From: Bacteroidales bacterium
Lineage (GTDB): Bacteria; Bacteroidota; Bacteroidia; Bacteroidales; P3
Assembly (NCBI GenBank): GCA_017934545.1
Contig: JAGBJI010000001.1
Span: 186,001 to 250,000, forward strand
Direction: 5' to 3'
Length of the DNA stretch: 64,000 nucleotides
Below the pieces are notes generated by a model. That model ran no database searches. It saw nothing but the letters and a program-made list of their open reading frames with translations, and was not told the origin of the DNA. Position numbers and translations under genes: made by a program. Shown here one piece after another: positions 6,392 to 55,280 of this stretch. The first letter of the stretch is position 1. Each line of letters opens with the position of its first letter.

Positions 6392-6535
6392 TTTTCTGAA
6401 AACAATTTATTTTGAACCGTCCGAAATATAAGTTTGAACCGTCCAAAACTACATTTCAGACGGTCTGAAATATGGTTTCGGACGGTCTGAAATAATTTCT
6501 TTTCAGAATTAGATTTTTTCCATTCAGAAAAGAAT
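6392..6535. repeat. 22-bp periodic array, GACGGT core
   Basis: Units start at 6392, 6414, 6436, 6458, 6480, 6502 and about 6523, a 22-bp step. The four central units carry ACCGTCC (6414, 6436) or its inverse GACGGTC (6458, 6480), so the array is near-symmetric about 6457. Outer units carry TTTTCTGAAAA or TTCAGAA, the boundary motif also seen in other arrays. It lies between the typA terminator and the structured region, with no supported gene. Confidence 0.7.
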
Positions 6536-6598
6536 TTTTTTAAATGTTGTTTTTATTTTAACAACTTGTGATTTGGTGATATTATAAATGAATAAATA

Positions 6599-6632
6599 AA
6601 ACGGCAGAAGGTTATTTTTGCTTCTGCCGTTT
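6599..6632 (-). terminator. intrinsic terminator of typA
   Basis: Stem AAACGGCAGAAG (6599-6610) with CTTCTGCCGTTT (6621-6632). On the minus strand it is followed by TATTTATTC. It lies 36 bp past the typA stop. Confidence 0.8.
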
Positions 6633-6667
6633 GTGATATTAATGTATTGAATTTATGTTTTAATTCA

Positions 6668-8488
6668 TTATTCGCTTAATGCGGCTTTGGCTTGAGCGGC
6701 ACGTTTGCGTTGGGTTTCGTCAAGGATGATTTTTCTTATACGCAGATGGTTCGGAGTTATCTCCAAATATTCATCATCTTTGATATATTCCATTGCTTCT
6801 TCCAAAGAAAACTTAACGGCAGGGGCAATATTGTTCTTTTCATCGCTACCTGCGGCACGCATATTCGTTAATTTCTTCGTAATTACAAGATTGACGACAA
6901 TATCATCAGGACGCAATCCTTCGCCGACAACCATTCCCGTGTATATCTCATCGCCCGACTCCACGAAAAACTTACCTCTGTCCTGTAACTTGTTCAAAGA
7001 GTAGTCTATTACCGAGCCTGTTTCCTTGGCAATCAACGCTCCCATACGTCTTGACGGCATATCGCCTTTCCAAGGTTCAAAACCTTTGAGTTGATGTGCC
7101 ATAATGGCTTCGCCTTCGGAGATTGTCAAAATGGTATTAGTCAATCCGATAAGACCGCGTGACGGAATGGTAAATTCAATGTGCTGTCTATCGCCGCGCG
7201 GTTCCATAGAAAGCAATTCACCTTTGCGTGCAGTAACCTGTTCAATGATTTTGCCTGCAAATTGTTCGGGCGTAACGATTATAAGTTGCTCAACAGGTTC
7301 GCATTTCTTACCGTCAATCTCTTTGATTATAACTTTAGGCTGACCGACCTGCAATTCGTAGCCCTCCCTGCGCATTGTTTCAATCAAAATACTCAAATGC
7401 AAGACGCCGCGTCCGTATACAATCATAGTATCGGGCGAATCAGTATCTTCAACTCTCAACGCAAGGTTTTTCTCTAACTCTGCATGCAGACGGTCGCGCA
7501 AATGGCGGGAAGTAACAAACTTTCCCTCTCTGCCGAAGAACGGAGAATTGTTGATAGTGAATAACATGCTCAGCGTAGGTTCATCAACCTTAATAGGTTT
7601 CAACGGTTCGGGTTCTTCTTTATCGCAGACCGTGTCGCCGATGTCAAAATTCTCTATTCCCAACAGTGCAACGATTTCACCTGCTTGTACAGGCGTTTTT
7701 ATCTTTTCCTTTGCCAATCCCTCAAAGACATACAATTCTTTAATCTTACTCGTATATCTTTCGCCGTTTGCTTTACACAGCGTAATATCCTGTCCTGCCT
7801 GCAATGTGCCACGGTGTAATCTTCCCACGGCTATACGTCCTACATAAGAGGAATAATCCAACGAGGAAATCATCAGTTGAGTGTTGCCCTCAATGTGCGG
7901 GTATTCGGGTATATATTTAATAATGGTGTCAAGCAAATAAGAAACGTCTGTCGTAGGTTTGGTATATTCTTCAGCCATCCAACCTTCCTTTGACGAACCA
8001 TAAACAGTAGGGAAATCCAATTGGTCTTCCGTTGCACCCAATGCACACATCAAATCAAAGACTTTCTCTTGTGTTGCAATAGGGTCGCAATTGGGTTTAT
8101 CAACTTTATTAATTACAACGATAGGTTTCAAATTCAATTCAATGGCTTTCTGCAATACAAAACGTGTTTGCGGCATCGGTCCCTCAAAAGCATCAACAAC
8201 CAAAAGCACTCCGTCAGCCATATTAAGCACACGCTCAACCTCACCGCCGAAATCACTGTGTCCCGGGGTGTCAATGATGTTTATCTTAAAATCTTTGTAA
8301 CGTATGGAAACGTTTTTGGAAAGAATGGTAATACCTCTTTCTCTTTCCAAATCGTTGTTATCAAGTATCAATTCCTTTTTCTCTTGGTTGTCGCGGAATA
8401 GTTTAGCTTGGTAAAGCATCCTATCAACCAATGTCGTTTTTCCATGATCAACATGAGCTATTATTGCTACGTTGCGAATATTCTGCAT
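6668..8488 (-). CDS. typA: translational GTPase TypA/BipA
   Basis: A 606-aa ribosome-binding GTPase of the elongation-factor superfamily, involved in ribosome assembly and stress or cold adaptation. The GTP-binding motifs are all present: G1 AHVDHGKT (11-18), G2 RGITI (51-55), G3 DTPGH (73-77) and G4 NKVD (127-130). The EF-G-like and TypA-specific C-terminal domains follow, for example [10 protein letters not shown] and the [11 protein letters not shown] segment. Length is normal. The gene lies 104 bp downstream of alaS on the same strand and ends at a clear terminator. Confidence 0.97.
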
Positions 8489-8591
8489 CTTTCTTTTGTT
8501 TTATATTAATTAAAATTATCATCACTATATTGTAATTGAACAGAAATAAAACGCTGTTTTTATTTCCGTCTAATTGCAACAGTATTTTGTT

Positions 8592-11204
8592 TTATACCCC
8601 TTTTACTTGTTCTTTGATGTAGTTCAGGGCGGTGGATATGCCGTCTTTGTCTTTGCCTCCTGCTGTTGCGTAGAATTTTTGACCTCCTCCGCCGCCTTTG
8701 ACGAATTTGGCTGCCTCGCGTACTATCTTGCCTGCATCCAATCCTTTTTCTACCATACTGTCGCTTAACATCACAGTCAGCATTACCTTATCGCCCACAA
8801 TGTTTGCTCCTGCAAAACAAAATTCTTTGTATTCTCCGCGGAACCGATACGCAATATCTTTCATTGTGTCGGCATCAACCGGCAGGCAAGCTTCAAAATA
8901 ATTTATTCCGTTGATATTTTCTGCTTTTTCTTTGACAGTTTGATAAATGTTTCTTGCGGCTTGCTGTTTGAAATCATCAACTTGTTTTTTCAGGTTGGCA
9001 TTTTCTTCCACTGTCTTTTGAATTGATTTGACTAAATCGGGCGATGCTTCAAAGAAAGAGCGTAATTGTTGCATTATGTCTTGCAATTTGTACATGTAAT
9101 TCTCAAATTCCTCGCCCGTAACGGCCTCAATACGGCGTATTCCTGCGGCAACAGCACTCTCGTTTATGATTTTAAACATTCCTATTGTGCCTGTACTCTT
9201 TACATGTGTACCTCCGCAAAGTTCAATACTCTCTCCGAAACGGATAACACGCACACTGTCGCCGTATTTCTCCCCAAATAGTGCCATTGCTCCCATTTGT
9301 TTAGCCTCTTGAATAGGAACGTTGCGGTGGTCATCGGCCTTGAAGTTCTCGCGTATCATTTGATTGACCAATTTCTCGGCATTACGGATTTCTTCATCGG
9401 TAAGTTTGCTGTGATGTGAGAAGTCAAAACGCAGACGTTTGTCATCAACATAAGAACCTTTCTGTTCAACGTGATTACCTAACACCTTTCTTAACGCAAA
9501 ATGCAATAAGTGGGTAGCCGTATGGTTTCTCTCTATATTATGTCGGCGGGTTGCGTTAACCTTTGCAGTTAATTCGGCAGTAACATCAGAAGGTAACGCC
9601 TTGGTTATATGAATAGGAAGATTGTTTTCCTTTTTTGTATCAATTACCGTTACTTTCTCTTCGCCTGAAATCAAAACTCCTTGGTCGCCGATTTGGCCTC
9701 CCATCTCGGCATACATAGGAGTACGGTCTAAAACTATTTGATAAAGAGATTGTCCTTTGGTTTCAACTTGGCGGTAACGAACTATATGGCACTGACATTC
9801 CAATTCATCATAACCGACAAAGTTTTCATCTTTGAAATCTTTGATAATCTCAACCCAATCTCCCGCTTTAACGCTCGCAGCATTCTTGCTGCGTTCTTTT
9901 TGTTTCTTTAGATTGTCCTCAAATGCAGCCATATCAACCTCACGTCCCTGTTCCTTTGCTATAAGACAAGTTAAATCAACAGGAAATCCGTAGGTGTCAA
10001 ACAATTCAAAGGCAAAACCGCCGTCAATCTTACCTTGAGGATTGTCTTTTATGTATTTATCAAATTTTTGTATGCCTCCTGCAAGAGTTTTCAAAAACGC
10101 ACTCTCTTCTTCTTTGATTACCTTAACAATAAGTTCGTGGTTCTTGTTTAGTTCAGGGAATTGATGACCCATTTGCTCAACCAAAGTGTCCACAAGCATG
10201 AACATAAACGGTTCATTGAACGAAAGGAAAGTATAACCGTACCTAACAGCGCGGCGAAGTATTCTTCTAATAACATAACCTGCCTTGTTGTTGGACGGCA
10301 TAAGCCCGTCAGCGATAGCAAATGTAACTGCACGCAAATGGTCTGCACAAACACGCATCGCAATGTCCTTTTTGTCGTCTTTACCGTATATATTATTAGA
10401 CAGAGATGCAATCTTTTGAATTAAAGGTTGGAAAACATCGGTATCATAATTGGATTTCTTGCCTTGCAATACCATACAAAGTCTTTCAAACCCCATACCG
10501 GTATCAATATTCTTCTCTTTCAAAGGTTCAAGGCTCTTGTCGGCTTTGCGGTTAAACTCCATAAAGACAAGATTCCATATCTCAATAACTAAAGGATTGT
10601 CTTTATTAACCAAATCTGCCCCTTTAATCTGTTGTTTTTCCTCCTCAGAGCGCAAATCTATATGAATCTCAGAGCAAGCACCGCAAGGACCGGTTTCTCC
10701 CATCTCCCAGAAGTTGTCATGTTTGTTGCCGGGAAGTATATGACTGTCCTCACAGTACTGTTTCCAATACTCATGGGCTTCTTCGTCGGCTTTAAGACCT
10801 TCTTTCTCATCTCCGCCGAAATATGTTACGTAAAGGATGCGTTTATCTATCTTATAAACCTGCGTAAGTAACTCCCAAGCGAACTGAATAGCCTCCTTTT
10901 TGAAATAATCTCCGAACGACCAGTTGCCAAGCATCTCAAACATAGTGTGATGATACGTGTCGTGGCCGACTTCTTCCAAATCGTTGTGTTTACCGCTCAC
11001 GCGAAGACATTTTTGCGTGTCTGCGGCACGGTTGTACGGCTTTTCAACGTTGCCCAAGAAGATGTCTTTGAATTGGTTCATGCCCGCATTGGTAAACAAT
11101 AACGTCGGGTCGTTTTTAACAATCATGGAACTTGACGGCACTATGGTATGCCCCTTGCTTTTAAAGTATTCAATGAATGCCTGTCTTATTTCGTTAGAAG
11201 TCAT
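8592..11204 (-). CDS. alaS: alanyl-tRNA synthetase
   Basis: An 870-aa class II synthetase that charges tRNA-Ala. The start at 11204 (MTSNEIRQAFIEYFKSKGH) is chosen over an in-frame one at 11249, because it matches the usual N-terminus and gives normal length. The catalytic core carries FTNAGMNQFKD and GPCGACSEIH. The editing domain has its zinc residues in NHTATHLLHF and CGGTH. The glycine-rich C-terminal DHHA1 end (FVKGGGGGQKFYATAGG) is intact. A TAACTTTG promoter box lies at 11287-11294, and a 22-bp array lies upstream. Confidence 0.97.
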   Translation of the reverse strand: MTSNEIRQAFIEYFKSKGHTIVPSSSMIVKNDPTLLFTNAGMNQFKDIFLGNVEKPYNRAADTQKCLRVSGKHNDLEEVGHDTYHHTMFEMLGNWSFGDYFKKEAIQFAWELLTQVYKIDKRILYVTYFGGDEKEGLKADEEAHEYWKQYCEDSHILPGNKHDNFWEMGETGPCGACSEIHIDLRSEEEKQQIKGADLVNKDNPLVIEIWNLVFMEFNRKADKSLEPLKEKNIDTGMGFERLCMVLQGKKSNYDTDVFQPLIQKIASLSNNIYGKDDKKDIAMRVCADHLRAVTFAIADGLMPSNNKAGYVIRRILRRAVRYGYTFLSFNEPFMFMLVDTLVEQMGHQFPELNKNHELIVKVIKEEESAFLKTLAGGIQKFDKYIKDNPQGKIDGGFAFELFDTYGFPVDLTCLIAKEQGREVDMAAFEDNLKKQKERSKNAASVKAGDWVEIIKDFKDENFVGYDELECQCHIVRYRQVETKGQSLYQIVLDRTPMYAEMGGQIGDQGVLISGEEKVTVIDTKKENNLPIHITKALPSDVTAELTAKVNATRRHNIERNHTATHLLHFALRKVLGNHVEQKGSYVDDKRLRFDFSHHSKLTDEEIRNAEKLVNQMIRENFKADDHRNVPIQEAKQMGAMALFGEKYGDSVRVIRFGESIELCGGTHVKSTGTIGMFKIINESAVAAGIRRIEAVTGEEFENYMYKLQDIMQQLRSFFEASPDLVKSIQKTVEENANLKKQVDDFKQQAARNIYQTVKEKAENINGINYFEACLPVDADTMKDIAYRFRGEYKEFCFAGANIVGDKVMLTVMLSDSMVEKGLDAGKIVREAAKFVKGGGGGQKFYATAGGKDKDGISTALNYIKEQVKGV

Positions 11205-11286
11205 CGTTGTATATATTTTATTATTAAGGTTCTTTACAAAAATATGCATCGGTCTGCACCTTTAGCATTTAACTTTTTTTAATCTG

Positions 11287-11316
11287 CAAAGTTACGAAAA
11301 ATGAGCGAAATGCAAA
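11287..11316 (-). promoter_or_regulatory. alaS promoter
   Basis: On the minus strand TAACTTTG (11287-11294) follows TTTG (11313-11316) after 18 bp. The box is 83 bp before the chosen alaS start, which supports the shorter protein because transcription would begin near 11280. Confidence 0.55.
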
Positions 11317-11437
11317 AGGAAAGCCCGCTTTTCTTTTCATTTTGGAATGCAAAGTAAGTTCGGCGGAGTAGAAGTTGCTAAAAAAAAACAGCCTTTTCAT
11401 ATAATGCCGCCGCCTTTTTGCATTTAATTTTTGCCCC

Positions 11438-11540
11438 TTGTGAAAGTAATCTCAAAAAAATCACATTTTTTTACTCAAAAAACCTATTTTTTTACATTAA
11501 AAAATCAGATTTTTTTGCATTTACTTGCGCAAAGGGCGGA
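11438..11540. repeat. 22-bp periodic array, poly-T/poly-A type (inverted copy)
   Basis: Units start at 11438, 11460, 11482, 11504 and 11526, exactly 22 bp apart. Central cores are ATCACAT, ACCTAT and ATCAGAT, each followed by a T-run, with an A-run about 11 bp further on. Read on the minus strand the order is ATCTGAT, ATAGGT, ATGTGAT, the same as on the plus strand at 25141-25191. Imperfect flanking inverted repeats (TTTTGCCCCTTG on the left, GCGCAAAGGGCGG on the right) enclose it. The rest of 11317-11713 holds no supported gene. Confidence 0.75.
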
Positions 11541-11713
11541 CATCAATTGCGAATGGGCATAGGTAAAGCATAAAAAGGCAGCCATTTTTTTAGTATACGG
11601 CAAGGGTACAGAGCAAGGAAACGACAATAAAACTGCGGTTAATAAAAATAAAACGGGCAGAAATGATAAATATGTATAAAAGATTTTGCCGACGGAAGTA
11701 AAAATAAAAAAGC

Positions 11714-11748
11714 AAAGGGGCAATCAACCATAGGTTGATTGCCCCTTT
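11714..11748 (-). terminator. intrinsic terminator of the 41-aa lipoprotein gene
   Basis: A strong stem, AAAGGGGCAATCAACC (11714-11729), pairs with 11733-11748, with a 3-nt loop. On the minus strand GCTTTTTTATTTT follows. It lies 17 bp past the small gene's stop. Confidence 0.85.
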
Positions 11749-11765
11749 GAAATAAATCATTTTGT

Positions 11766-11891
11766 TTACCGCAAAATTTCTCTCGTATAATAGTGCGATG
11801 ATTTATAAGCATCGCATTTATGCGACGAACATCCTGCAAATCCCATTGCCACTATTACAATTGCAATTAAGGTTAAAATCAATTTTTTCAT
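11766..11891 (-). CDS. small lipoprotein (41 aa)
   Basis: A 41-codon gene. It starts with ATG at 11891 and encodes a signal MKKLILTLIAIVIVAMG, then a lipobox FAGC at about 17-20, then a short tail with SSHKCDAYKSSHYYTREILR-like content (two cysteines in all). The C-S-S-x-K-C-D-A-Y pattern recalls small lipoproteins common in Bacteroidetes. It should be a lipid-anchored peptide of about 20 residues after processing; function unknown. A proper terminator follows at 11714-11748, and it lies 50 bp downstream of nth on the same strand. Confidence 0.75.
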   Translation of the reverse strand: MKKLILTLIAIVIVAMGFAGCSSHKCDAYKSSHYYTREILR

Positions 11892-11941
11892 ACTTTAGGT
11901 TATGTTTTTATAATTATTAATTCTTTTAACGCCGAAATATA

Positions 11942-14134: not shown

Positions 14135-14156
14135 CGTCGGTCGGTAAATGTTTGAA

Positions 14157-14187: not shown

Positions 14188-14215
14188 CACCTTATAATAT
14201 ATAAATTTTGTTGTT

Positions 14216-15028: not shown

Positions 15029-15156
15029 TTCAAAACCTAAAAATAAAAAACATATGTTTTTGAAACGAAAAACATATGTTTTTTGATTAAAATTCATATG
15101 TTTTTTTATAAAAATACATATGTTTTTTAAAAACGGATTCAGAAAAGAAATTTTTA
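15029..15156. repeat. 22-bp periodic array, CATATG core
   Basis: Four CATATG hexamers lie at 15051, 15073, 15095 and 15117, exactly 22 bp apart. Each is followed by T5-T7 and, half a unit later, an A-run. A weaker TTTTTCAAAA unit sits in register at about 15029. A TTCAGAAAAGAAATTTTT boundary unit starts at 15138, like the right end of the 6.4 kb array. It lies between yggS and the tmRNA promoter. Confidence 0.8.
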
Positions 15157-15271: not shown

Positions 15272-15670
15272 GGGGTTGGGTTGGTTTTGACAGCAAGGTA
15301 AAGGCTCAAGCAAGCACGCAGTTATACGCAACAGATAACTTTAAACCCGGTTGCAAAAAATTAATTGGCGAAAATACTTACGCTCTTGCTGCGTAACCGA
15401 AGTACAGTAAGTTACTCTTTATCAGCACAAGGTGTTGAGCAAGACGCTCCTCCGACGGTTAGAAACTCTTGGCTAAGGATTAAAGGGGTGCATCATTCAA
15501 AGAGTTTAGTCTGCGGTTTTCTTCGCACTGCGGATGAAAATTGAGAAGATAAGATAAATTTCAGCGAGTCTGTCCGCAGGGTTTATCCGACAATTTAAGG
15601 CAGAATAAGCGTGTAGAAAACTTCGGTTTTTCTTGTTTGGACCAGGGTTCGAATCCCTGCAGCTCCACCA
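15272..15670 (+). ncRNA. ssrA: tmRNA (transfer-messenger RNA)
   Basis: Rescues stalled ribosomes by trans-translation with SmpB (not in this window). The 5' end GGGGTTG pairs with CAGCTCC at the 3' end to form the acceptor stem, and CCA is encoded. The tRNA-like TTTTGACAGC and GGTTCGAATCC segments are present. The tag ORF at 15367-15396 reads GGC GAA AAT ACT TAC GCT CTT GCT GCG TAA, that is GENTYALAA, close to the GENNYALAA tag I recall for Bacteroides. One-piece form; length 399 nt. Confidence 0.96.
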
Positions 15671-16551: not shown

Positions 16552-17556
16552 ATGAAAAAACTGTACATAATAATGGTTGCATGCGGCTTGTTGTTGATTA
16601 CAGGCGGGTGCAAAAAACAGGAAAATGCTAAAGACAGTCTGACTAAAGGTTTGTCTACATCGGGAGGAAAAACACTTGAAATGATAGTTGTTGCAAGCGA
16701 TGAGGTGTACAACGGAGCATTGAGGGATTCCATAGGATACAATTTTGAAATACCGCAGCAAGGACTGAATCAAAAAGAACCTTTGTTTGACGTAGTCCAT
16801 CTTAAACCCGAAGGATTTATACATTCGGATATGTTGCAAAAGCACCGCAATATATTGATTATAGATTTCAAAAAGGGCAATCCTAACAAGATGTACAGCG
16901 AAATAAACCAACGTGTATACCCGCAGGCAGTATACAAACTTATGGTGGATAACCGTGACAGTATGTTCAGTATATTGTCACGTTTTTATTTTACTATAAA
17001 ACATCAATTCTATGCAAACGAACATGACCGTGTGTATACGGTGTTCAAAAAGGACGAAAACGTCAAATTAGACAAACAGATAAAAGACAATTTCGGCATC
17101 AATCTGACAATATCCGCAGACTTTTATCTTGCCAAAAAGACCGACGACTTTTTTTGGATAAGAAAAGAAACCGATCATGAGAGTTACGATATTATGATAT
17201 ACAAGATGCCTTTTACGGGCAACGGATTGTACGGTCAAGAAAAAATAATAGACATACGTGACCAAATATCGCAGAAAAATATTCCGGGACCTGCCAACGG
17301 TTCGTACATGGGTACGGAAAAACGCTTTGACATAGTGTCCGACACAATCAAGGTTAACGGAATATTGATGGTGGAAACAAGGGGCTTGTGGCGGTTGTTC
17401 GGCGATTTTATGGGCGGTCCGTTCGTCAATTACGCATTCTGTAATCCCGCTACGGACGATTTTGTTATGATAGATTGTTTCTTGTATTCTCCTAAAAAAT
17501 CAAAAAGGGATTTGCTTATTCAGTTGGAGAGTATAGTATACAGCATAAACAGATAG
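16552..17556 (+). CDS. DUF4837 family lipoprotein
   Basis: A 334-aa predicted lipoprotein. The signal MKKLYIIMVACGLLLITGGC ends in a lipobox with the cysteine at 20. The segment GGKTLEMIVVASDEVYNGALRD and the later HRNILIIDFKKGN are characteristic of DUF4837, a Bacteroidetes-specific family of unknown role. The start at 16552 fits the signal and the promoter at 16455-16486. It is followed 65 bp later by the methylmalonyl-CoA epimerase gene, possibly by chance. Confidence 0.85.
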   Translation: MKKLYIIMVACGLLLITGGCKKQENAKDSLTKGLSTSGGKTLEMIVVASDEVYNGALRDSIGYNFEIPQQGLNQKEPLFDVVHLKPEGFIHSDMLQKHRNILIIDFKKGNPNKMYSEINQRVYPQAVYKLMVDNRDSMFSILSRFYFTIKHQFYANEHDRVYTVFKKDENVKLDKQIKDNFGINLTISADFYLAKKTDDFFWIRKETDHESYDIMIYKMPFTGNGLYGQEKIIDIRDQISQKNIPGPANGSYMGTEKRFDIVSDTIKVNGILMVETRGLWRLFGDFMGGPFVNYAFCNPATDDFVMIDCFLYSPKKSKRDLLIQLESIVYSINR

Positions 17557-24266: not shown

Positions 24267-24836
24267 TTACAGATTTTCAATGGTTTTGCACAGCAATACG
24301 CTTATCTGTTCGGGTGTTCCGTGTTCTCCGTCCAACTCTACGTATGCGTTTTTGGCTTTGTAATAGTCGGCAACTGCAGCCGTTTTGGCTTCGTATTGTG
24401 CAAAACGTTCTTTTATCGTGGTTTCGTTGTCGTCTTTTCTGCCCTCTATCTCGGCACGTTTCAACAACCGCTGCATCAACACCTCTTTGTCAACTTTCAA
24501 CTCTATTACCGTAGCATTGCCGCGGTTTTGCGATGCAAGTATACCGTCCAATGCACGTGCCTGTTGCTCCGTTCTCGGAAATCCGTCCAACAACAAATCT
24601 TCGTTCGGGTGCGACTCTATAAACGATTGTATCATGCCTACAATTATTTCGTCCGAAACCAACTGTCCTTTGTTTATTATTTCTTCGGCTTGTTTGCCCA
24701 ATTCCGTTTGTTTTTTTATTTCGCTGCGCAATATCTCGCCCGTAGAGATGTAAGCAAAGGCAAATTTTTCTCTTATGATTGCACTTTGGGTTCCTTTGCC
24801 TGCACCCGGAGCGCCGAATAAGATTATGTTTTTCAT
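24267..24836 (-). CDS. adk: adenylate kinase
   Basis: A 189-aa short-type enzyme that equilibrates ATP, ADP and AMP. The P-loop GAPGAGKGT is at 8-16, the AMP-site DGFPRT at 84-89, and a short LID (AEIEGRKDDNET) without zinc cysteines is typical of the group. A minus-strand TATCTTTG box at 24892-24899 may be the promoter of the adk-obg-PAP2 operon. Confidence 0.97.
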   Translation of the reverse strand: MKNIILFGAPGAGKGTQSAIIREKFAFAYISTGEILRSEIKKQTELGKQAEEIINKGQLVSDEIIVGMIQSFIESHPNEDLLLDGFPRTEQQARALDGILASQNRGNATVIELKVDKEVLMQRLLKRAEIEGRKDDNETTIKERFAQYEAKTAAVADYYKAKNAYVELDGEHGTPEQISVLLCKTIENL

Positions 24837-25093
24837 CGTGTTATGAAATTTTGTTTGTTTTTTTTGTTATATTGCAAATGTAAATACGTTGCAAAGATAC
24901 GAAAAAAATTGATATGCCTTATTTTAAGAAAACAAACCGCAAAATAAATCTCCCGCTTTTTTTATTACTGTCCTTTATTTTTTTTCCTCCATTCCGCTCT
25001 TTTTTTCAACTAACAAGCCTTTATTACCTCTAATATTTCTCCTAATCTCCGTTTTTTCTCCCCTCACCGCTGCCCTGCCTCATTATGCCTCTG

Positions 25094-25238
25094 CCCAACG
25101 GTAATTTACTTTTGCCCTTTCAGAAAGTAATCTCAAAAAAATCTGATTTTTTGCCTCAAAAAAATAGGTTTTTTCAGTGAAAAAATGTGATTTTTTTAAA
25201 ACTCTTTTCAGAAAGGGCGGCGACATAATGCCGTTGGG
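25094..25238. repeat. 22-bp periodic array, poly-T/poly-A type, with flanking inverted repeat
   Basis: Units start at 25119, 25141, 25163, 25185 and 25207, exactly 22 bp apart. The outer two begin TTCAGAAAG. The central cores are ATCTGAT, ATAGGT and ATGTGAT, each with a T-run and an A-run about 11 bp apart. An imperfect inverted repeat flanks the array: the left side has GCCCAACGG, then 12 nt, then GCCCTTTCAGAA. The right side, reversed, has GCCCAACGG, 12 nt, then GCCCTTTCTGAA. It lies between divergent adk and the secreted-protein operon; 24900-25093 otherwise holds only pyrimidine-rich sequence. Confidence 0.8.
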
Positions 25239-25269
25239 CAAAATTTTATTACGAAAGGGCGGGAGATTT

Positions 25270-25301
25270 TTTGGTGGATTAAAAATAAATTTGTATTTTT
25301 G
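25270..25301 (+). promoter_or_regulatory. promoter of the secreted-protein operon
   Basis: TTTG (25270-25273), a 20-bp spacer, TATTTTTG (25294-25301), then C. A second box, TATCTTTG at 25397-25404, has TTG 18 bp upstream, so two start sites are possible. Confidence 0.6.
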
Positions 25302-25614
25302 CAGTGATAAAATGTAAAATTGATTGTTAACAAAACTCATTTTATGAAAAATAAAAATACCATATTATCTTTTAGTTGTTCATTTTGTGTGAATTATATC
25401 TTTGTTTTAGGTAAAAACAATTTGCTGATATTTTAGCATCTTGCAAACCCGAAAGTTTTTTTCCTGCAAGGTGCGAGTGATAAATTTCTTTCTTTTACCA
25501 ACCAAAAGAAATATTTTTATTGCGAAAGATTTATTTACAGATTTTATTTGTGGAAAAAACGCAGACAAAGAAAAGATTTTAAATAATTAATAACACAATA
25601 AAAATTGATTTAAT
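25302..25614 (+). other. long 5' leader with a short ORF
   Basis: About 310 bp without a clear gene lie between the promoter and the ATG at 25615. A 30-codon ORF at 25344-25436 starts MKNKNTILSF. The segment CATCTTGCA/TGCAAGGTG (about 25437-25477) could form a short stem. No known riboswitch was recognised. Confidence 0.3.
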
Positions 25615-26946
25615 ATGAAAAGAATTAAGTATTTATTATTTTTCGCAGCACTGATATTATTAGTAAGTGCAGCACACGGGCAAATAAGTTATACATCTGC
25701 AGTATCTGCCCAAAGGTTAAATTATTATTACAGTATTGACACAAGTTTTGCACCTAAAGTAATGTGCGTACCGGATAATCTGGATTTAGTCATAACTCTC
25801 GCACATGAAACAGGAAATACTAATTCTTTGTTATTTCTCACACAAGAAGGGACTAATGTCGTAAATGTTGTCAGAATTTCAAACTATTTAATTACGGATT
25901 TTGATATTTTTTACAACTATATTGTTTTTTGCGGAGAATCTCCTTCATCACCTCTATATCCTACCATCATTAAATCAGTCGGCGTGGAGGATTATATGAG
26001 TTTATTTGCGGGAAGTAGTGCTATTAGCACTATGGATTTACCCTCAAATCTCCCGTTTGGTAAATTAAAGAAAATACGTGCATATCAAAATGACGGAATA
26101 ATGAAGCTTGCGGCAATAACAGATTCTACATATTTTTTAGATATTGATTGGACAAATCAGTATTTTGACGCATTTAGAGCTCACTCCGACTTGAATGATA
26201 TAATAGTAACTGAAGATTATGTTTCTGTTTTAGGAACTATTTCTACAACACAATGCTTTATTTTTGCACATGACAAGAATAATATGCAATCTTACAACGG
26301 AAATAGATTCAGAACTATATCAAAATATTTAGAGTCTAAATATTTTATTGAAGAAATGCCTGGCAGTGGGTTTTATGATAATTTCACAAACGGCAATCAG
26401 GCATTTATAGGATTTATGCGAGATGACCTAAAAGATGAATTTGCTATTATAGACCTAAATATAATGTATGTTTTAGACAATTTTGTCGTTGATTCCGTTT
26501 CCCGTCACAATATTCTTGACCTTTGTCACGACAATACTTATCATACAATTCATTGTCTGTCGCGGGGAGTACTTATCAATGATTATATTTATCAACCTTT
26601 TCCTCATAATAATTATTTAATGGCCGTATTACCGCTTGATACTATTCCTGCTTTTAATTACCATCTCAAAACCATAACTCCGCATTACAATTATTTTATT
26701 GCTGCAGGGCATTGTTATGGCTATGGAAGTTCATCCAATGATGCTGTCTATTGGTTTGATTCGCAAATCAACAACTACAATTCTTCCTGTTTTTCAACCA
26801 AGCTGTTGATAGAATCACCTGCTACCTCCTTCAGAAAATTAGGAAGTCTTACATATGACTATATCTATCTTTCAAATATTTTATCACCCAGTACAATATC
26901 ATCTATAATATTAAATGAATTTTATTCATATGAATGTCAAAATTAA
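25615..26946 (+). CDS. secreted protein of unknown function (443 aa)
   Basis: A 443-aa exported protein; the signal MKRIKYLLFFAALILLVSAAHGQ is clear. The mature part is strand-rich and aromatic, with repeated patterns of the type NDGIMKLAAITDSTYFLDID and EDYVSVLGTISTTQCFIFAHD. This suggests a propeller-like repeat fold, but I do not recognise a family. There is no T9SS sorting domain at its end, unlike the next gene, which starts 35 bp later. Base composition is more AT-rich than the adk and sdh neighbours, suggesting an accessory origin. Confidence 0.75.
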   Translation: MKRIKYLLFFAALILLVSAAHGQISYTSAVSAQRLNYYYSIDTSFAPKVMCVPDNLDLVITLAHETGNTNSLLFLTQEGTNVVNVVRISNYLITDFDIFYNYIVFCGESPSSPLYPTIIKSVGVEDYMSLFAGSSAISTMDLPSNLPFGKLKKIRAYQNDGIMKLAAITDSTYFLDIDWTNQYFDAFRAHSDLNDIIVTEDYVSVLGTISTTQCFIFAHDKNNMQSYNGNRFRTISKYLESKYFIEEMPGSGFYDNFTNGNQAFIGFMRDDLKDEFAIIDLNIMYVLDNFVVDSVSRHNILDLCHDNTYHTIHCLSRGVLINDYIYQPFPHNNYLMAVLPLDTIPAFNYHLKTITPHYNYFIAAGHCYGYGSSSNDAVYWFDSQINNYNSSCFSTKLLIESPATSFRKLGSLTYDYIYLSNILSPSTISSIILNEFYSYECQN

Positions 26947-31870: not shown

Positions 31871-32224
31871 TTTTTATCCGTGTTTTATACATAGTCTGCA
31901 CCCGTAAAACAATAACATACGGGTGAAAATCAATTTTTTAAATTTTTATTCCGCCCGTTTTTTATTATTCTCTTTATATATTATATAGATGAATCATTAA
32001 TATATATTATATACACGCCGGATAATATGCGGGTATCGGTCTGTAATGCTAAAAGGAAGTAATATAATATCGGTATACCATTATATAATATATAGGTATC
32101 GGCGGAATTTTTAAGCAACAGGACGGAAAAAATTCGTAAAACACCCAAGAAAATTAAAAATAAGCCGAAAAAAATTCATAAAACGCCCAATAAATTCCGC
32201 CAAACGCCGTTTTAACTTCAAAAG

Positions 32225-32372
32225 GTGACACTTTTTGTATCAAACAGTTAGACCTTTCTTTCAAAAAGTGTGACTTTTCTTCAAAAAAGTCACACTTTTT
32301 GAAAGAAAAGTCAGATTTTTTATAAGAAAAGTGACACTTTTTTATATGAAATGTCTGACTTTTTGAAGTTTA
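32225..32372. repeat. 21-22-bp periodic array, GTnnnAC core, seven units
   Basis: Units start at 32225, 32247, 32268, 32289, 32310, 32331 and 32353, steps of 21 or 22 bp. Cores are GTGACAC, GTTAGAC, GTGTGAC, GTCACAC, GTCAGAT, GTGACAC and GTCTGAC. Each is followed by a T-run and, about 11 bp on, an A-run. GTGTGAC and GTCACAC are inverse forms, so the array mixes orientations. Short AACTTCAAAA and TTTTTGAAGTTT sequences close the two ends. It lies between the divergent sdh and Sua5-like genes. Confidence 0.75.
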
Positions 32373-32504
32373 TTCGGCCTCTGAAGGAATTTATCGGGCG
32401 TTTTTTGCAATAAAAAAGGCGGGTGAAGGCGGTAAGGAATTGAAAATATAGAGGTATGAGGCGGTTGCGTAGCATAAAAAAAGATGTTTTTGGAAATATT
32501 TGCG

Positions 32505-40613: not shown

Positions 40614-40787
40614 GCATTTATTATATAATATATGACAGTAAAATGTGAAAAAAGTTTAAAAACACCGCCGCTGTAATGGGATAAAACATTGAAAACAACT
40701 ATATTTTTCGGACTTAAACGGATATTAATTCTGAAAAAACAAAATCACTGCCATAATTAATAAAAGCGTTTTTAGAAATAAAAATCC

Positions 40788-40897
40788 TGCAAGACGGTTT
40801 TGTAAACTCTGCAAAACCGTCTTGCAAGTGTTGCAAAACCGTTTTGCAGACATTACAAAACCGTTTTGCAGGGAATTGGTTTGCGAAAACATTTTTG
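40788..40897. repeat. 22-bp periodic array, palindromic AAAACCGTTTT core
   Basis: Four clear units start at 40788, 40810, 40832 and 40854, exactly 22 bp apart: GCAAGACGGTTTTGT, GCAAAACCGTCTTGC, GCAAAACCGTTTTGC and ACAAAACCGTTTTGC. Each core is itself near-palindromic. A weaker unit at 40876 is in register (TGGTTTGCGAAAAC). The area lies between the TonB-receptor gene and the tRNA promoter. Confidence 0.8.
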
Positions 40898-45113: not shown

Positions 45114-45632
45114 ATGAAGAAAGAAGATAAAGGAAGACTAATAGAACAAATCGGAGAGCAGATAAAAGAGTACCCGTACTTATATGTTGTAGATCTTGAA
45201 GGATTGGATGCAAAAGATACTGCAGCATTAAGAAGAATGTGCTTTAAAAGAGAGATAAAACTTTTAGTTGTAAAAAATTCTTTTCTTAAAAAAGCGGTGG
45301 AAGGATTGGAAACGGATTATTCCGCAATCGTTCCTACATTCAAAGGACAGACTTCTTTGATGTTATCCAAAATGAACAATGCTCCTGCAAAATTAATAAA
45401 GGAATTCAGAAATCAAAAAGAGAAGAAAGAAAAACCTTTACTTAAATCCGCTTATGTAGAAGAAGAATTTTATATAGGTGACGAGCATTTGAATGAACTT
45501 GTTGCAATAAAATCTAAGAATGAATTGGTTGCAGATGTTATTTCTGCATTATTATCACCGATACGGAATATTGTCAGTGGTTTGACCAATGAAGAACGTA
45601 AAGATAAGCAGCAGGAAAGTGTAGCAGAATAG
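45114..45632 (+). CDS. rplJ: 50S ribosomal protein L10
   Basis: A 172-aa stalk protein that holds L7/L12. The N-terminal KEDKGRLIEQIGEQIKEYPY and the middle VVKNSFLKKAVEG fit L10. The C-terminal helix carries the L12-binding end. It lies 41 bp before rplL. Confidence 0.95.
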   Translation: MKKEDKGRLIEQIGEQIKEYPYLYVVDLEGLDAKDTAALRRMCFKREIKLLVVKNSFLKKAVEGLETDYSAIVPTFKGQTSLMLSKMNNAPAKLIKEFRNQKEKKEKPLLKSAYVEEEFYIGDEHLNELVAIKSKNELVADVISALLSPIRNIVSGLTNEERKDKQQESVAE

Positions 45633-49100: not shown

Positions 49101-49997
49101 TCTTCAATAGATTATCTTAATGTTAATCCTCATGATTGGACTGATGATGAACAAACAAATAATTTAATTAAGAAATTACTTAATAATTATAGTTTGGTAT
49201 ATAGAAATCTTCAGGGAAAATTAGCAAGAGAACAATTTGCACAGACAATAGGTGATGATTTACCTGCCGGAATTATAAAGATTGCCAAAATTTATATAGC
49301 AAAGAAGCGTAAATTAAAGGTTGGCGATAAGATGTCGGGTAGACATGGTAACAAAGGTATCGTAGCTAAGATAGTAAGGGAAGAAGATATGCCGTTTTTG
49401 TCTAACGGAAAACCTGTGGATATAGTTTTGAACCCATTGGGTGTGCCGAGTAGAATGAATTTGGGACAGATATTTGAAACTATTTTAGGTTGGGCAGGAC
49501 ACGAATTGGGAATAAGATTCCAAACGCCTATTTTCAACGGTGCTACGTTGGAGCAAGTCAACGAATATTTGGAGAAAGCAAATCTTCCTTTAAACGGTAA
49601 ATGTTTGTTGTATGACGGACAGTCGGGCGAACCGTTTGACCAACCTGCAACGGTAGGATATGTTTATATGTTGAAATTGCACCATATGATAGATGATAAG
49701 ATGCACGCCCGCAGCATAGGACCGTATTCACTTATAACCCAACAGCCGTTAGGCGGTAAAGCTCAATTCGGAGGACAGAGATTCGGAGAAATGGAAGTTT
49801 GGGCATTGGAAGCTTACGGTGCATCGCACGTATTGCAGGAGATGCTTACCGTTAAGTCTGATGATGTTGTCGGAAGAGCAAAAGCTTATGAAGCAATCGT
49901 AAAAGGTGACAATATGCCTGCTCCGGGAATCCCTGAATCATTTAATGTACTTGTACATGAGTTGCGAGGATTGAATTTGGAGGTTACATTTAATTAA
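46194..49997 (+). CDS. rpoB: RNA polymerase beta subunit
   Basis: A 1267-aa catalytic subunit. It starts with TTG at 46194 (TTG GCA AAA AAT), because no ATG fits and the protein begins [23 protein letters not shown], as in related proteins. The rifampicin-region stretch [33 protein letters not shown] is intact. The later [19 protein letters not shown] and the C-terminal [12 protein letters not shown] and LNLEV segments are present. Length is normal for Bacteroidetes. Confidence 0.98.
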
Positions 49998-50032
49998 TAT
50001 TTGGCAAAACTGATAAAATAGAAAGAGAAATT

Positions 50033-53000
50033 ATGGCTGTAATAAATAAAGAAGGTAGTTCAAATTCTTCATTTCGGTCAATGACAATATCATTGGCTTC
50101 GCCCGAATCTATATTAGAGCGTTCATGCGGTGAAGTTACAAAACCGGAAACAATCAATTACAGAACGTATAAACCTGAAAGAGAAGGTTTGTTTTGTGAA
50201 AGAATTTTCGGACCTGTCAAAGATTGGGAATGCAGTTGCGGTAAATATAAGAGGATTAGATATAAGGGAATAGTTTGTGACCGTTGCGGAGTAGAGGTTA
50301 CGGAGAAGAAAGTCAGAAGAGAGCGGATGGGACACATACAATTGGTTGTTCCTGTTGCTCATATTTGGTTTTTCAGGTCTTTGCCGAATAAGATAGGTGC
50401 GTTGATAGGTCTGCAGAGCAAAAAGTTAGAGCAGGTAATATATTATGAAAAATATGTTGTCATCAATCCCGGTATAAAAGAACAAGACGGGGTTAATAAG
50501 TTAGACCTTTTGGCAGAAGAAGAATATCAGGCAATATTGGATACATTGCCTGAAGAAAATCAGTTGTTGCCTGATGACGACCCGAATAAATTCGTGGCAA
50601 AAATGGGAGGAGAAGCTCTTTATGAATTGCTGCGTACAATAGATATAAACTCACTTTCATTCAAATTACGTGACTCTGCAAGCAGGGAAACTTCAATGCA
50701 GAGGAAAAAAGATACGTTGAAAAGACTTAACGTTGTGGAAGCGTTCAGAGAGGCTGCAATGAAGATGGAAGCAAGAGGATTGGAAAACCGTCCTGAATGG
50801 ATGATAGTAAAAGTTGTTCCGGTTATTCCTCCTGATTTGCGTCCGTTAGTTCCTCTTGACGGAGGAAGGTTTGCAACTTCTGATTTGAATGATTTGTACA
50901 GACGTGTTATTATAAGAAACAACCGTTTGAAGCGTCTTATTGAAATCAAGGCTCCGGATGTTATCATGCGAAATGAAAAACGTATGTTGCAGGAAGCCGT
51001 AGATTCATTGTTTGACAACTCAAGAAAAGTTTCTTCCGTAAGAAGTGATTCCAACAGAGCGTTGAAATCTTTGTCTGACAGTTTGAAAGGAAAACAAGGA
51101 CGTTTCCGTCAGAATTTGTTGGGTAAACGTGTGGATTATTCAGGTCGTAGCGTTATCGTGGTAGGACCTGATTTGAAAATGTACGAATGCGGATTGCCTA
51201 AAGATATGGCAACGGAGTTGTTCAAACCGTTTATAATAAGAAAAATTCTTGAACGCGGAATAGTAAAGACGGTTAAGAGTGCAAAACGTATCGTTGACAG
51301 AAAAGAACCCGTTGTTATTGAAATATTGGAAAATCTGGTTAAAGGACATCCTGTATTGCTGAACAGAGCCCCGACATTGCACAGATTGGGTATTCAGGCA
51401 TTCCAACCTAAATTGGTGGAAGGTAAAGCTATCCGTTTGCATCCGTTGGTTTGTACGGGTTTCAACGCCGATTTTGACGGTGACCAGATGGCTGTCCATC
51501 TTCCGTTGGGCAATGCCGCTATCTTGGAAGCACAACTGTTGATGCTTTCTTCGCACAATATATTGAATCCTGCCAACGGAGCTCCGATTACAGTACCTTC
51601 TCAAGACATGATATTGGGATTGTACTACATGACCAAAGAGAGAAAAAGCGACGGAGAAGCAAAAATAGCGGGAGAGGGTAAATCGTTCTACTCAATAGAA
51701 GACGTACAGATAGCATATAACGAAAAACAGGTTGATTTACATGCAGCGATAACTTTGTACCATAATAATAACGGTGAAAAACTTTCGCGTATAGAATATT
51801 TTGACAGAAAAAATAATGTAAACAATATCGGAATATGCATCGGGGAAGATGAGTATTTTGACCAAAGCGGACTTAAACTTGATATAACTTCGGAAGATAT
51901 AATTGAGAAAACCAACGGTGTGAAAACCACTGTAGGAAGAGTTTTGTTCAACAGATTGGTTCCCGATGAATACGGTTATGTCAATAAACTTATAAAGAAG
52001 AATGTCTTAAGGGATATTATCGGAGGAGTGCTTAAGACATGCGGTTCGGCAAGAACGGTTCAATTCTTGGATGACATCAAAGACAAAGGTTATTACATGG
52101 CATTTAAGGGAGGTTTGTCCTTTAATTTGGCAGATGTTATCGTACCTGAAGAAAAGGTTGACCTTATTGAGCAAGCCGAAGGACAGGTTGACGAAGTTAC
52201 GGGCAACTATCAGATGGGATTTATCACCGACCGTGAGAGATACAACCAAGTTATTGACATTTGGACAACGACCAACAGAACTTTGGCTAACCACGTTATG
52301 AAACAAATGTCGGCAGACAGACAGGGATTCAATGCAGTATACATGATGTTGGATTCAGGTGCGCGTGGTAGTAAAGAGCAGATACGTCAGTTGTCGGGTA
52401 TGAGAGGTTTGATGGCAAAACCGCAGAAAGCAGGAAGCGGCGGAGCGGAAATTATTGAGAACCCTATCATATCTAACTTCAAAGAAGGATTGAACGTGTT
52501 GGAATACTTTATCTCAACACACGGAGCAAGAAAAGGTTTGGCCGATACGGCTTTGAAAACAGCCGATGCAGGATACTTGACAAGACGTTTGGTAGACGTG
52601 GCACACGACGTTATCATCACCCAGGAAGACTGTGGAACGTTGAGAGGAATACCTACACGTGCGTTGGTGCGTAACGACGAGGAAGTTCAAAGTTTGTATG
52701 ACAGAATATTAGGAAGGGTAACCTTGCATGACATCATTCATCCGAGAACAGGAGAGATTATAGCACGCGAAGGCGATGAGTTGACGGAAGATATTTGTCT
52801 GAAGATTCAGGAATCGCCGATAGAAGAAGTGGAAATACGTTCGGTATTGACATGTGAAGCCAAGAAAGGTGTGTGTGCTAAATGTTACGGACGTAACCTT
52901 GCGACAGGCAAGTTGGTACAACGAGGCGAGTCCGTGGGCGTCATAGCGGCACAGGCTATCGGAGAACCGGGAACACAGTTGACTTTGCGTACATTCCACG

Positions 53001-54703
53001 TAGGAGGTGTTGCATCGGGAGATTCGGCTACAATCCACGCTAAATATGACGGAATAGTTCATTTTGAAAGTTCCAACCTTGTACCTGCATTTATCAGGGA
53101 CAAAGACGACAAAGGAAACTATTTCAGTAAAGAATACGTCAACGACAATGGCGTACGCATTTACAGGGAGATGGGTTCAACGTGCGAAATGCAGATAATA
53201 GACCAAAAAACCGGCAGCATACTTCAGCAGGCACACATCCAGTTCGGTACATATATACATGTACAGGACGGCGAAACGGTTGCAGCATCGCAGGCAATAG
53301 CCGTACCTGATTTGTATTCGTCGCACATAATTTCGGGCTTGGAAGGAAAGGTTAAATTCTTCAACATAATAGAAGGAACTACGTTCAGAAGCGAATCCGA
53401 TGCCCAGACGGGACTTATAGAAAAGATAATCACGGAAACCAAGCAAAAAGGTATAGTTCCGTCAATAGGAATAATAGGACGCAGTTACACCAAACCTAAA
53501 AATACGGCGTTGTTGGTTCAACCCGGACAGGAGATAAAAGCGGGAACGGTATTGTTCAAAACCGAAGACGCAGCGGAAGGTGTTAAAGAGATAACCACCG
53601 ATATAGCGGGCGTTGTAGATTTGAGCATTGACGGTGACGCAGATACCATTGAGGCAAAGAAATTGGATGTCAACATAGTGGTCAAAACATACGACATGCC
53701 TGCAGGAGCTCACCTTAGCGTTGAAGACGGCGAACATATAATGCCTACTATCACCCTTGCAACCAAAGCACGTGCAAGTGCAAAGGCAGGTGATATCACG
53801 GGAGGTTTGCCTCGTGTAACCGAATTGTTTGAAGCACGTAATCCGTCAGACCAAGCAGTGATTGCGGAAATAGACGGAGTGGTATCGTTCGGCAAAAAAC
53901 TTAAACGCGGCAACCGTGAAGTGATAATAACGGGCAAAACGGGTGAAACGGTTTCTTACCTTATACCTACATCGCGTCAGATATTGGCACAGGAAAACGA
54001 TTACGTAAAAGCAGGAACTCCTATATCCGAGGGTGAAATAGCACCGAGCGATATTTTGGACGTCTTGGGACCTTTGGAAGTTCAGAAATATATTGTCAAC
54101 GAAGCACAGGACGTTTACCGTTTGCAAGGTGTTAAGATAAACGACAAACACTTTGAGGTGATAGTACGTCAGATGATGCGTAAAGTGGAGATAGACGATG
54201 CGGGCGATACGCAGTTCCTTGAAGCCGAAGCGGTCAACAAGATAGACTTCCAGCAGGAAAATGATAAAATTTACGGTATGCAGGTTGTAACAGACCAAGG
54301 TGACAGTGAATTGTATCAGAACGGACAGATGATTACAGTGAGGGAATTGAGGGACGAAAACTCCTCTTTGATACGCCGTGACATGCGTCCGATGGAAGCA
54401 AGGGAAGCAAAACCTGCAACGGCACACCAAATATTGCAGGGTATTACCAGAGCGTCGTTGCAAACCAAGAGTTTCTTGTCGGCGGCATCGTTCCAGGAAA
54501 CGACCAAAGTGCTTACCGAGGCTGCAATCAATGCAAAAGAAGACAATCTTTTGGGTATGAAAGAAAATGTATTGGTAGGTCACTTGATTCCGGCAGGAAC
54601 GGGATTGAGGGAATACGAAAACGTTTTCGTTGCAGACAGGGAACAATTGGAGAAGATGACCAAACCGTCCATCCAACCTGTAAGAAGAGGACGTAAGAAA
54701 TAA
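50033..54703 (+). CDS. rpoC: RNA polymerase beta-prime subunit (long form)
   Basis: A 1556-aa catalytic subunit. The zinc site C67, C69, C82, C85 is present. The active-site NADFDGD (478-484) is intact. A second zinc site uses C867 and the group starting at C941 ([11 protein letters not shown]). The trigger loop and bridge-helix region is normal ([13 protein letters not shown]). The protein is about 120 residues longer than the roughly 1430 I recall for Bacteroidales; the surplus appears to sit in the sandwich-barrel hybrid region at about 1000-1250. Ends the operon at a terminator. Confidence 0.97.
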
Positions 54704-54733
54704 GATTAAAAAAAAGTAAAAATAATGTTGTTC

Positions 54734-54767
54734 AGGGCAGATGTAAATTAATCTGCCCTTTTTATTG
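54734..54767 (+). terminator. terminator after rpoC
   Basis: AGGGCAGAT (54734-54742) with ATCTGCCCT (54751-54759) and a TTTTTATT tail. It separates rpoC from the DUF3467 gene. Confidence 0.82.
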
Positions 54768-54794
54768 GAAACAATCAAATAAAATACACTGAAA

Positions 54795-55106
54795 ATGGAA
54801 AATAACAGTCAAGATGCAAAGTTGGATATTTCTATAAGCGAAGCGGTTGCGTCGGGTACGTACAGCAATTTGCAGATAGTTCAGCATTCACCTACGGAAT
54901 TTATAGTTGATTTCATTCAAATCATGCCCCATGTGCCTAAAGCACAGGTCAAATCGCGTATAATACTTCACCCCGTACATGCCAAGAAACTGTTGCATGC
55001 TTTGCAGGACAACATAGCACGCTACGAGATGACGTTCGGAAAGATAAAAGAAGACACGTCTTCTGCAGTGCCTTACGCAGAGATAAATCCTATGGGTAAA
55101 GCCTGA
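54795..55106 (+). CDS. DUF3467 protein
   Basis: A 103-aa cytoplasmic protein matching DUF3467, a small family often found directly after rpoC in Bacteroidetes. Features are ASGTYSNLQIVQHSPTEFIVDFIQ, the VKSRIILHPVHAKKLLHAL helix and a tail with YAEINPMGKA. Its function is not known. It is separated from rpoC by the terminator at 54734, so it may be read only by partial readthrough or its own promoter. Confidence 0.88.
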   Translation: MENNSQDAKLDISISEAVASGTYSNLQIVQHSPTEFIVDFIQIMPHVPKAQVKSRIILHPVHAKKLLHALQDNIARYEMTFGKIKEDTSSAVPYAEINPMGKA

Positions 55107-55143
55107 ACAAACCATACCGCCCTTTAATGTTTAAATTCAGCCG

Positions 55144-55280
55144 AACGGTATTTAATTTTTGCCCTTTCAGAATTTGTTGTCAAAAAAAATAGGTTTTTTG
55201 CCTCAAAAAATCTGATTTTTTTAATCAAAAAACCTATTTTTTTTGAGATTACATTCAGAAGGGGCGGCGGCGTTGGGGCG
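55144..55280. repeat. 22-bp periodic array, poly-T/poly-A type, third copy
   Basis: Units start at 55166, 55188, 55210, 55232 and 55254, exactly 22 bp apart. The outer two begin TTCAGAA. The central cores are ATAGGT, ATCTGAT and ACCTAT (inverse of the first), so the centre is near-palindromic. The flanks resemble the 25.1 kb element: GAACGG and GCCCTTTCAGAA on the left, TTCAGAAGGGGCGGC on the right. It lies just before a secreted-protein gene. Confidence 0.8.

Follow-up and report, generated by a model that had tools for sequence, protein, structure and literature searches.

What are the seven groups of short repeats which lie between the genes of a 64,000-nucleotide stretch of a Bacteroidales genome (GTDB lineage Bacteroidales, P3; GenBank assembly GCA_017934545.1, contig JAGBJI010000001.1, positions 186,001 to 250,000), and why do they share a step of about 22 bp? 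The first-pass annotation of this stretch, called the window in the following, had proposed one family of intergenic arrays with a strict 22-bp unit. The window was analyzed together with 20 further stretches of the same genome (G000), 459 kb in total, and with samples of about 6-120 kb from each of the other genomes. The G000 genome, that of a gut-type Bacteroidales, carries hundreds of short non-coding cassettes, the repeats of which are two turns of DNA apart. That this spacing is kept despite motifs differing by family and species suggests a shared protein-binding layout. The explanation favored here, held tentatively and with somewhat less than even confidence, is that the cassettes consist of phased dyad sites between transcription units, which spread in a mobile-like manner and whose register is held by cooperative protein binding.

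Arrays with a register of 21 to 22 bp

Using a cutoff of at least 28/44 identities at a lag of 20-23, arrays were called with a detector run blind to the loci already noted. Fourteen of the 20 stretches had been picked around matches to one family (class B, see below) and six had been picked blind (L023, L024, L028, L032, L034, L035). We were aware of a reported contamination of 8.1% in the G000 assembly. In the window exactly the seven loci of the first-pass annotation were returned; at the laxer threshold of 27 a single call was added, a coding repeat at 45368. Core steps in the window ranged from 20.5 to 23 bp, mostly 22, in agreement with the proposed single register across unrelated cores. 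Over all 459 kb 92 arrays were called. A first Markov shuffle gave no calls, another 20 shuffles gave 0-2 apiece, and control lags of 16-19, 25-28, 29-32 and 34-37 gave 4, 1, 5 and 5. The six blindly picked stretches gave 25 calls in 120 kb, a few coding repeats included. Intergenic self-match reached 0.337 at lag 21 and 0.321 at lag 22, compared to a background near 0.29, and the peaks recurred at 42-43, 63-64 and 84-85 bp. Calls and autocorrelation thus extend the proposed period from the window to the sampled genome.

Could such a picture arise from ordinary minisatellites, made by slippage where the DNA is AT-rich, or by chance from base composition? Some calls were indeed coding (7/96; by eye mostly ordinary protein repeats, one of them an inserted array) or of short period, and 7-bp repeats were present in several named loci. 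The shuffle and control-lag counts, however, lie far below 92, unit number and length are fixed in the main families, and unit-specific spacers are common to different loci. This explanation, the compositional part of which had been raised by the first-pass annotation itself, was considered extremely improbable.

By reading, the arrays were assigned to class B (three units of A6-core-T6), CATATG (four units), TTTTCWGAAAA (three units), GTCCCAC, TACCCCC/ACCGGG, AAAACCGTTTT, ACCGTC and GTNNNAC families. Steps were 22 bp in 29/29 cases for CATATG (10 arrays) and 21 bp in 23/23 for TTTTCWGAAAA (14 arrays). Genome-wide pattern searches yielded 162 plus 148 CATATG matches, each element contributing several, as well as 100 matches for class B with a CCTA core, duplicates on contigs C4 and C7 included, and 19 for one TTTTCTGAAAA form, with 0 matches for each reversed control. 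Contigs C4 and C7 showed the same matches at a constant offset of 7440 bp and are near-duplicate assembly pieces. The spacers of CATATG loci are unit-specific and common to the copies, so these loci are copies of one cassette and not independent arrays. The ACCGTC core was also found in the related genomes G004 and G009. The earlier statement that the core usually differs between loci has therefore to be narrowed: three of the seven window loci share one family, and each core has further copies in the sampled genome. Conservation of the core within a locus was found for CATATG and not for class B, where units 1 and 3 carried the same core directly in 0/46 and inverted in 6/46 copies.

A TTTCWGAAA-like boundary motif was detected in 38/52 arrays of class B, CATATG, AAAACCGTTTT and ACCGTC, compared to 6/143 array-free intergenic windows; the recurrence of TTCAGAA-like boundaries, noticed before in several arrays, thus holds for four families. 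In CATATG arrays the boundary motif was placed one unit from the core in 13/14 occurrences, at 21.5 bp in 11 of them and at 22.5 bp in the other 2. The best dyad symmetry over 8 pairs exceeded that of shuffles in class B (7.65 versus 6.37), CATATG (8.0 versus 6.64), ACCGGG (7.4 versus 5.9) and TTTTCAGAAAA (7.3 versus 6.5), and was hardly above them in the remaining arrays classed as "other" (6.25 versus 5.97).

The picture of one system with interchangeable addresses was partly right. Families cluster regionally: same-family neighbors were found in 53/80 cases for class B and CATATG on contigs C1-C5 (39.9 expected, p-value of 0.0015; p-value of 0.074 when shuffled within contigs) and in 25/50 cases for all families in the sample (18.0 expected, p-value of 0.007). 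Local copying, however, would give the same pattern.

The class B cassette

The window loci at 11438, 25119 and 55166 are copies of one family, class B, each with an inner span of exactly 105 bp and an outer GCC/GGC span of exactly 189 bp (Table 1). These copies possess three central units and three weaker inverted units per side. Class B is mirror-symmetric, as both flanks read inward show the same three 22-bp units (GCCC...GCATT...); such terminal inverted repeats, imperfect arms of about 63 bp, were established for class B only. In the arms (88/92 anchored) the mean information per 22-bp block beyond the boundary unit was 0.81 and 0.60, then 0.16 and less. The cores form a small alphabet, mainly TCAGA, TCACA, CCTA, CTA and CCACA in either orientation, with TCACA-CCTA-TCAGA as the commonest word (13/46). 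Relative to tandem genes, 8 copies were oriented with and 10 against transcription, i.e., there was no bias.

Table 1. Arrays of the window (positions in bp of the 64,000-nucleotide stretch; steps in bp).
Element	Position	Strand	Units, steps and boundaries	Surroundings
ACCGTC/GACGGT array (locus 6392)	6394..6530	.	4 cores, steps 22, 21, 22, last two inverted; TTCWGAA boundary motifs at 6394, 6502, 6523	hairpin terminator of the upstream gene precedes the array (by eye)
Class B cassette (locus 11438)	11391..11579	.	189 bp; inner boundaries 11433-11537 (105 bp); central units TCACA-CCTA-TCAGA; steps 23 and 21 (search expression also caught a motif 11 bp off)	between AlaRS gene and the upstream gene's own hairpin terminator (terminator by eye)
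CATATG cassette	15031..15145	-	CATATG at 15051, 15073, 15095, 15117; steps 22, 22, 22; boundary TTCAGAA at 15138	upstream of tmRNA 15272-15670
Class B cassette (locus 25119)	25072..25260	.	189 bp; inner boundaries 25114-25218; units ATCTGA-ATAGG-ATGTGA; steps 22.5, 21.5	between divergent adk (24267-24836) and gene 25615
GTNNNAC-type array	32117..32420	.	seven cores; steps 22, 21.5, 21, 20.5, 21, 22.5; inverted arms on both sides, AACGCCC/GGGCGTT-type units (arms by eye)	between divergent genes
AAAACCGTTTT array	40773..40887	.	four cores at exactly 22 bp; TTCTGAA at 40729 and 40923	upstream of tRNA-tuf operon
Class B cassette (locus 55166)	55119..55307	.	189 bp; inner boundaries 55161-55265; units ATAGG-ATCTGA-CCTAT; steps 21.5, 22.5	downstream of rpoC and small conserved gene 54795-55106; measured outer right arm overlaps first bases of open reading frame 55296

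The length of the cassette was nearly invariant. An inner span of 105 bp was found in 41/43 copies (104 and 106 in the others; 3/46 had no recognizable boundary) and an outer span of 189 bp in 28/32 (three of 190, one of 188; 12/44 had no recognizable outer unit), at a mean ungapped identity of 0.80 (range 0.63-0.98, 41 copies). Parsimony on a neighbor-joining tree of these 41 copies gave 386 substitutions, with a floor of 236, half of a 472-step spanning tree. Although the sequence is rich in A6-A8/T6-T8 runs, only 2 net length changes were counted in 43 copies, a measure behind which compensating indels may hide. A rough calibration in related genomes, resting partly on coding DNA, gave 8 indels per 38 substitutions. 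A fixed length despite the A/T runs is not the pattern which drift should leave. In the relatives G001 and G009, the stretches of which were likewise picked at class B matches, the span was 103 bp in 9/9 and 3/3 copies with mostly other cores, CTA being shared.

Pairs less than 6 kb apart reached a mean score of 101 (16 pairs) compared to 76 between contigs, and the best match lay within 12 kb in 6/44 copies versus 1.6 by chance (p-value of 0.01). Local spread as sole cause was rejected, because some best partners are located on other contigs. As a separate observation, cassette, promoter region and gene start recur together on different contigs (window about 25115-25700, L025 about 10690-11120, L030 about 16850-17280); the L025 and L030 copies are 89% identical over 430 bp, and by eye the copy in the window resembles them. 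This represents a dispersed duplication.

Such a family invites a selfish explanation, the main rival and a possibility taken seriously at well below even confidence: elements resembling miniature inverted-repeat transposable elements (MITEs) and lacking a host function would be copied by a trans-acting enzyme with multi-site, two-turn-phased binding. Fixed length would then reflect the substrate requirement of the enzyme or a recent spread, and intergenic gaps would simply be what tolerates cassettes. Similar copies dispersed in both orientations, the excess of close best matches, symmetric arms and defined ends fit this explanation, as do the fall in conservation, which sets in at a constant position past the third arm unit, and one close pair (L021) in which similarity begins sharply at the outer unit. 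It is weakened by the search for target-site duplications, in which no clear enrichment was seen at lengths 3-9 in 32 copies (best 4 versus 1.2 expected over many offsets; the ends may be misplaced). The search for enzymes, limited to two kinds of transposases, also weighs against it to some degree: at an E cutoff of 0.001 the REP-associated tyrosine transposase (RAYT, Y1_Tnp; REP, repetitive extragenic palindrome) had hits in 0/14 genomes of the genus, some of which are incomplete, and the Mu-type transposase C domain was not found in G000, whereas G004 has four. RAYT/REP and Mu/Tn7 systems were rejected as explanation on these grounds. Furthermore, several unrelated families share the register and four the boundary. 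A phage origin was searched with two exact, narrow patterns, which gave 0 matches in viral_contigs, weak evidence of absence.

Curvature, RNA structure and candidate proteins

The predicted bend was above that of shuffles in class B (96 versus 56 degrees, 40 arrays), CATATG (103 versus 55, 9 arrays) and ACCGGG (97 versus 54, 5 arrays), and below it in TTTTCAGAAAA (35 versus 56, 12 arrays), GTCCCAC (39 versus 50, 2 arrays) and AAAACCGTTTT (41 versus 51, 2 arrays), all calculated with wedge parameters. The curvature by phased A-tracts which had been thought plausible for many units is therefore predicted for the first three families and not for the other three, and curvature as a common principle was rejected (3/6 named families with two or more arrays). 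Purely mechanical elements between transcription units, i.e., sites which are curved or take up supercoils and serve HU, gyrase or some other topology factor without specific recognition of the cores, would agree with the two-turn phasing and with the bent families. Against them stand the families predicted straighter than shuffles and the exactly kept CATATG cores, and we regard them as improbable.

About the same low probability was assigned to elements acting at the RNA level, terminators or 3'-end hairpins as a counterpart of the bacterial interspersed mosaic elements (BIMEs) of Escherichia coli. Class B RNA folded far below shuffles (mean z of -5.75, 20/44 copies tested), terminator-like hairpins occur in the GTCCCAC, ACCGGG and TTTTCAGAAAA arrays, and some convergent gaps are filled by arrays. 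However, the match between the two arms of one copy did not exceed that between arms taken from different copies (26.48 versus 26.42, p-value of 0.45), and in the absence of such covariation cruciform and RNA pairing were rejected. Moreover, a separate terminator-like hairpin precedes the array on 18/31 class B 3' sides, divergent gaps hold arrays as commonly as convergent ones, class B shows no orientation bias, and RAYT was not found in the 14 genus genomes.

Among candidate binders, HU-HIG proteins (PF18291) were compared with array density. Copy number and density correlated weakly (Spearman 0.43, p-value of 0.014, 32 genomes, copy numbers mixing two cutoffs), and HU-HIG was rejected as binder, since copies do not predict density: G047 has 15 copies and 0 calls in 60 kb, G054 18 copies and 1 call in 80 kb, and G001 4 copies and 18-21 calls per 100 kb. 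For the record, G000 has 14 hits, the genus (G000-G013) 2 to 30 per genome, the same-family G014 39, and nine genomes of other families of the order 1 to 4 each.

Placement between genes, turnover and meaning

Genes were called with a home-made hexamer method, and array segments less than 60 bp apart were merged, a fused two-family pair in L023 counting as one array. Among the 136 gaps with a length of 100 bp or more, 74 held one array, 3 held two and 59 none. When arrays were placed at random by free length, gaps with more than one array numbered 15.6 on average and never fewer than 7 over 2000 trials. For the window and the six blind stretches 25 gaps had one array, 24 none and 0 two, versus 4.3 expected with two (p-value of 0.002). 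Two arrays per gap are thus rare, which for selfish elements would need target immunity. Arrays were present in 38/75 tandem, 25/38 divergent and 14/23 convergent gaps, their median distance being 96 bp to the stop codon and 191 bp to the start codon. One TTTTCAGAAAA array of three 21-bp units, seven codons each, was observed in frame in the variable loop of an NAD-dependent epimerase gene (L035:16022-16990). It was rejected as a clean empty site, because the loop length varies among orthologues; it shows tolerance of an in-frame array and not an exact insertion point. This array within a sugar-nucleotide epimerase gene fits the selfish explanation.

Comparison of orthologous gaps, which the first-pass annotation had proposed, revealed turnover of families between species at the same gap (sequences read by eye). 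In front of the tRNA-tuf operon, AAAACCGTTTT occurs four times in G000 and a class-B-type cassette in G001, and no array is present in G002 or G008. In the gap which follows the small gene behind rpoC, G000 carries class B, G008 a 21-bp array of its own and G001 a few short units of its own kind; only short hairpins were seen in G004, G006 and G002, and a hairpin in G009. This gap is too short in G011 and G013. At the AlaRS gene, the upstream gap of G009, where the enzyme is 97% identical and the neighbor is the same, holds no array, and that of G008 holds an array of its own; G001, G002, G006 and G012, in which different genes lie upstream, do not allow a comparison. Such presence, absence and exchange between species is also what selfish elements would show.

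Arrays were not confined to G000. Nine of 10 sampled sister genomes gave about 5-18 raw calls per 100 kb (G001 18.4 and G009 10.0, both partly sampled at known matches; G002 12.7, G004 14.8, G005 13.1, G006 5.1, G008 11.8, G011 9.2, G013 16.3), the tenth, G012, 0 in 7.7 kb; control lag sets gave 0-3 calls each. Within the family of the window genus, G014, G016 and G024 were high and G015 and G018 had none. Other families sampled showed mostly 0-5 calls per 100 kb, with 2 in 20 kb for G042. Named Bacteroidales, among them Bacteroides, Phocaeicola, Segatella and Porphyromonas pasteri, contained scattered arrays with their own cores. By eye many of these were palindromes; coding and 7-bp repeats stood among the arrays. 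In P. pasteri (L177, L178, L194, L090) array steps were near 22-23 bp by eye, again with own cores. Tandem repeats of seven bases, seen in L067, L076, L093, L117 and L118 of other Bacteroidales, imitate a period of 21 bp, and any survey has to filter them out.

How would these observations be connected? In the favored explanation one or more kinds of dimeric DNA-binding proteins would load side by side on dyad-like sites two helical turns apart, and the putative dimers, holding each other on one face of the helix, would keep the register. Same-face binding every two turns, already suspected in the first-pass annotation, is the best inference from the sequence. Cooperative loading of this kind on successive dyads predicts a fixed two-turn register while cores, curvature and arm pairing vary. 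Neither arm pairing nor slippage accounts for the register, nor does curvature, which three families lack. Whole cassettes would be copied into new intergenic sites, so that families of similar copies as well as different families in the same gap across species would arise. The bound assembly in the gap, in the cases seen by eye between terminator and next gene, may act as a boundary. This role, suggested by placement, could consist in insulating transcription units, blocking read-through or the spread of supercoils, or organizing the nucleoid.

Several observations weigh against this explanation. Since 59/136 gaps have no array and orthologous gaps are sometimes empty, no single array is indispensable. 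Class B copies share descent and are not independent samples of the register, and their conservation drop at a fixed place, with the sharp onset in the L021 pair, favors selfish spread. The smaller families are looser, with steps of 21.5-24 for ACCGGG and 21-23 for ACCGTC and AAAACCGTTTT, and the shared boundary was present in 0/5 ACCGGG, 0/2 GTCCCAC and 0/12 "other" arrays. The terminator-like hairpins of three families (8/11, 4/4 and 3/4 sides) mean that part of the array set may act as RNA. With HU-HIG rejected, no binder was found. Raw calls in relatives include coding repeats (G005 2/3 by eye), the control lag sets gave up to 3 calls each in G013, and several arrays in other Bacteroidales have no clear palindrome by eye.

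A bolder version of phased protein binding, which we consider unlikely, is a boundary code: in one family of Bacteroidales, about half of the sizeable gaps would each hold a single cassette as the assembly site for protein dimers on one face of the helix, giving an insulator-like chromatin layer. The register would be conserved over species, with cores turning over like addresses through co-evolution of binder and site, and the cassettes would label regions of the chromosome.

Known systems share single features with the arrays. REP/BIME elements with RAYT are likewise hundreds of intergenic mosaic repeats built of discrete palindromic motifs; unlike them, the arrays keep a register of 21-22 bp, are common in divergent gaps also, and come without RAYT in the 14 genus genomes. 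The ends of Tn7 and Mu carry several 22-bp transposase sites in inverted arrangement, as seen here, whereas the arrays have no cargo, no duplication found and, in G000, no Mu-type C domain. Iterons of plasmid origins are protein-bound direct repeats about two turns apart, a spacing shared by the arrays, which are, however, chromosome-wide, intergenic, of mixed orientation and of several families. Also from the Bacteroidales is the BrickBuilt MITE of Porphyromonas gingivalis, one family of 19 copies with a 23-nt unit in 1 to 22.8 repeats, a leader and tail unlike each other, IS5-like terminal inverted repeats, and internal indels of 0-6% (PMC4596501). Both are Bacteroidales intergenic elements with a tandem unit near two helical turns and dispersed copies with flanking segments, and one BrickBuilt copy is present or absent between strains. 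The arrays differ in belonging to several families, in having, for the main ones, a step of 21 or 22 bp together with a constant unit number and length, and, in class B, in arms which are inverted copies of one consensus. The 22-bp Porphyromonas repeats mentioned in the first-pass annotation may correspond to BrickBuilt, which has a unit of 23 nt and a different layout (PMC4596501). No description of multi-family, 21-22 bp phased intergenic arrays in Bacteroidales was found among the titles and abstract openings listed in searches of open-licence PubMed Central.

Bacteroidales are dominant gut bacteria, and to our knowledge little is known about how they fence operons from one another. A fixed two-turn spacing with fast-changing motifs, found genome-wide, offers a direct handle on the separation of operons. 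If the cassettes form a boundary system, they would represent a bacterial counterpart of insulators. If they are selfish, they would be a mobile family which tolerates substitutions and almost no net length change, and this also asks for a mechanism.

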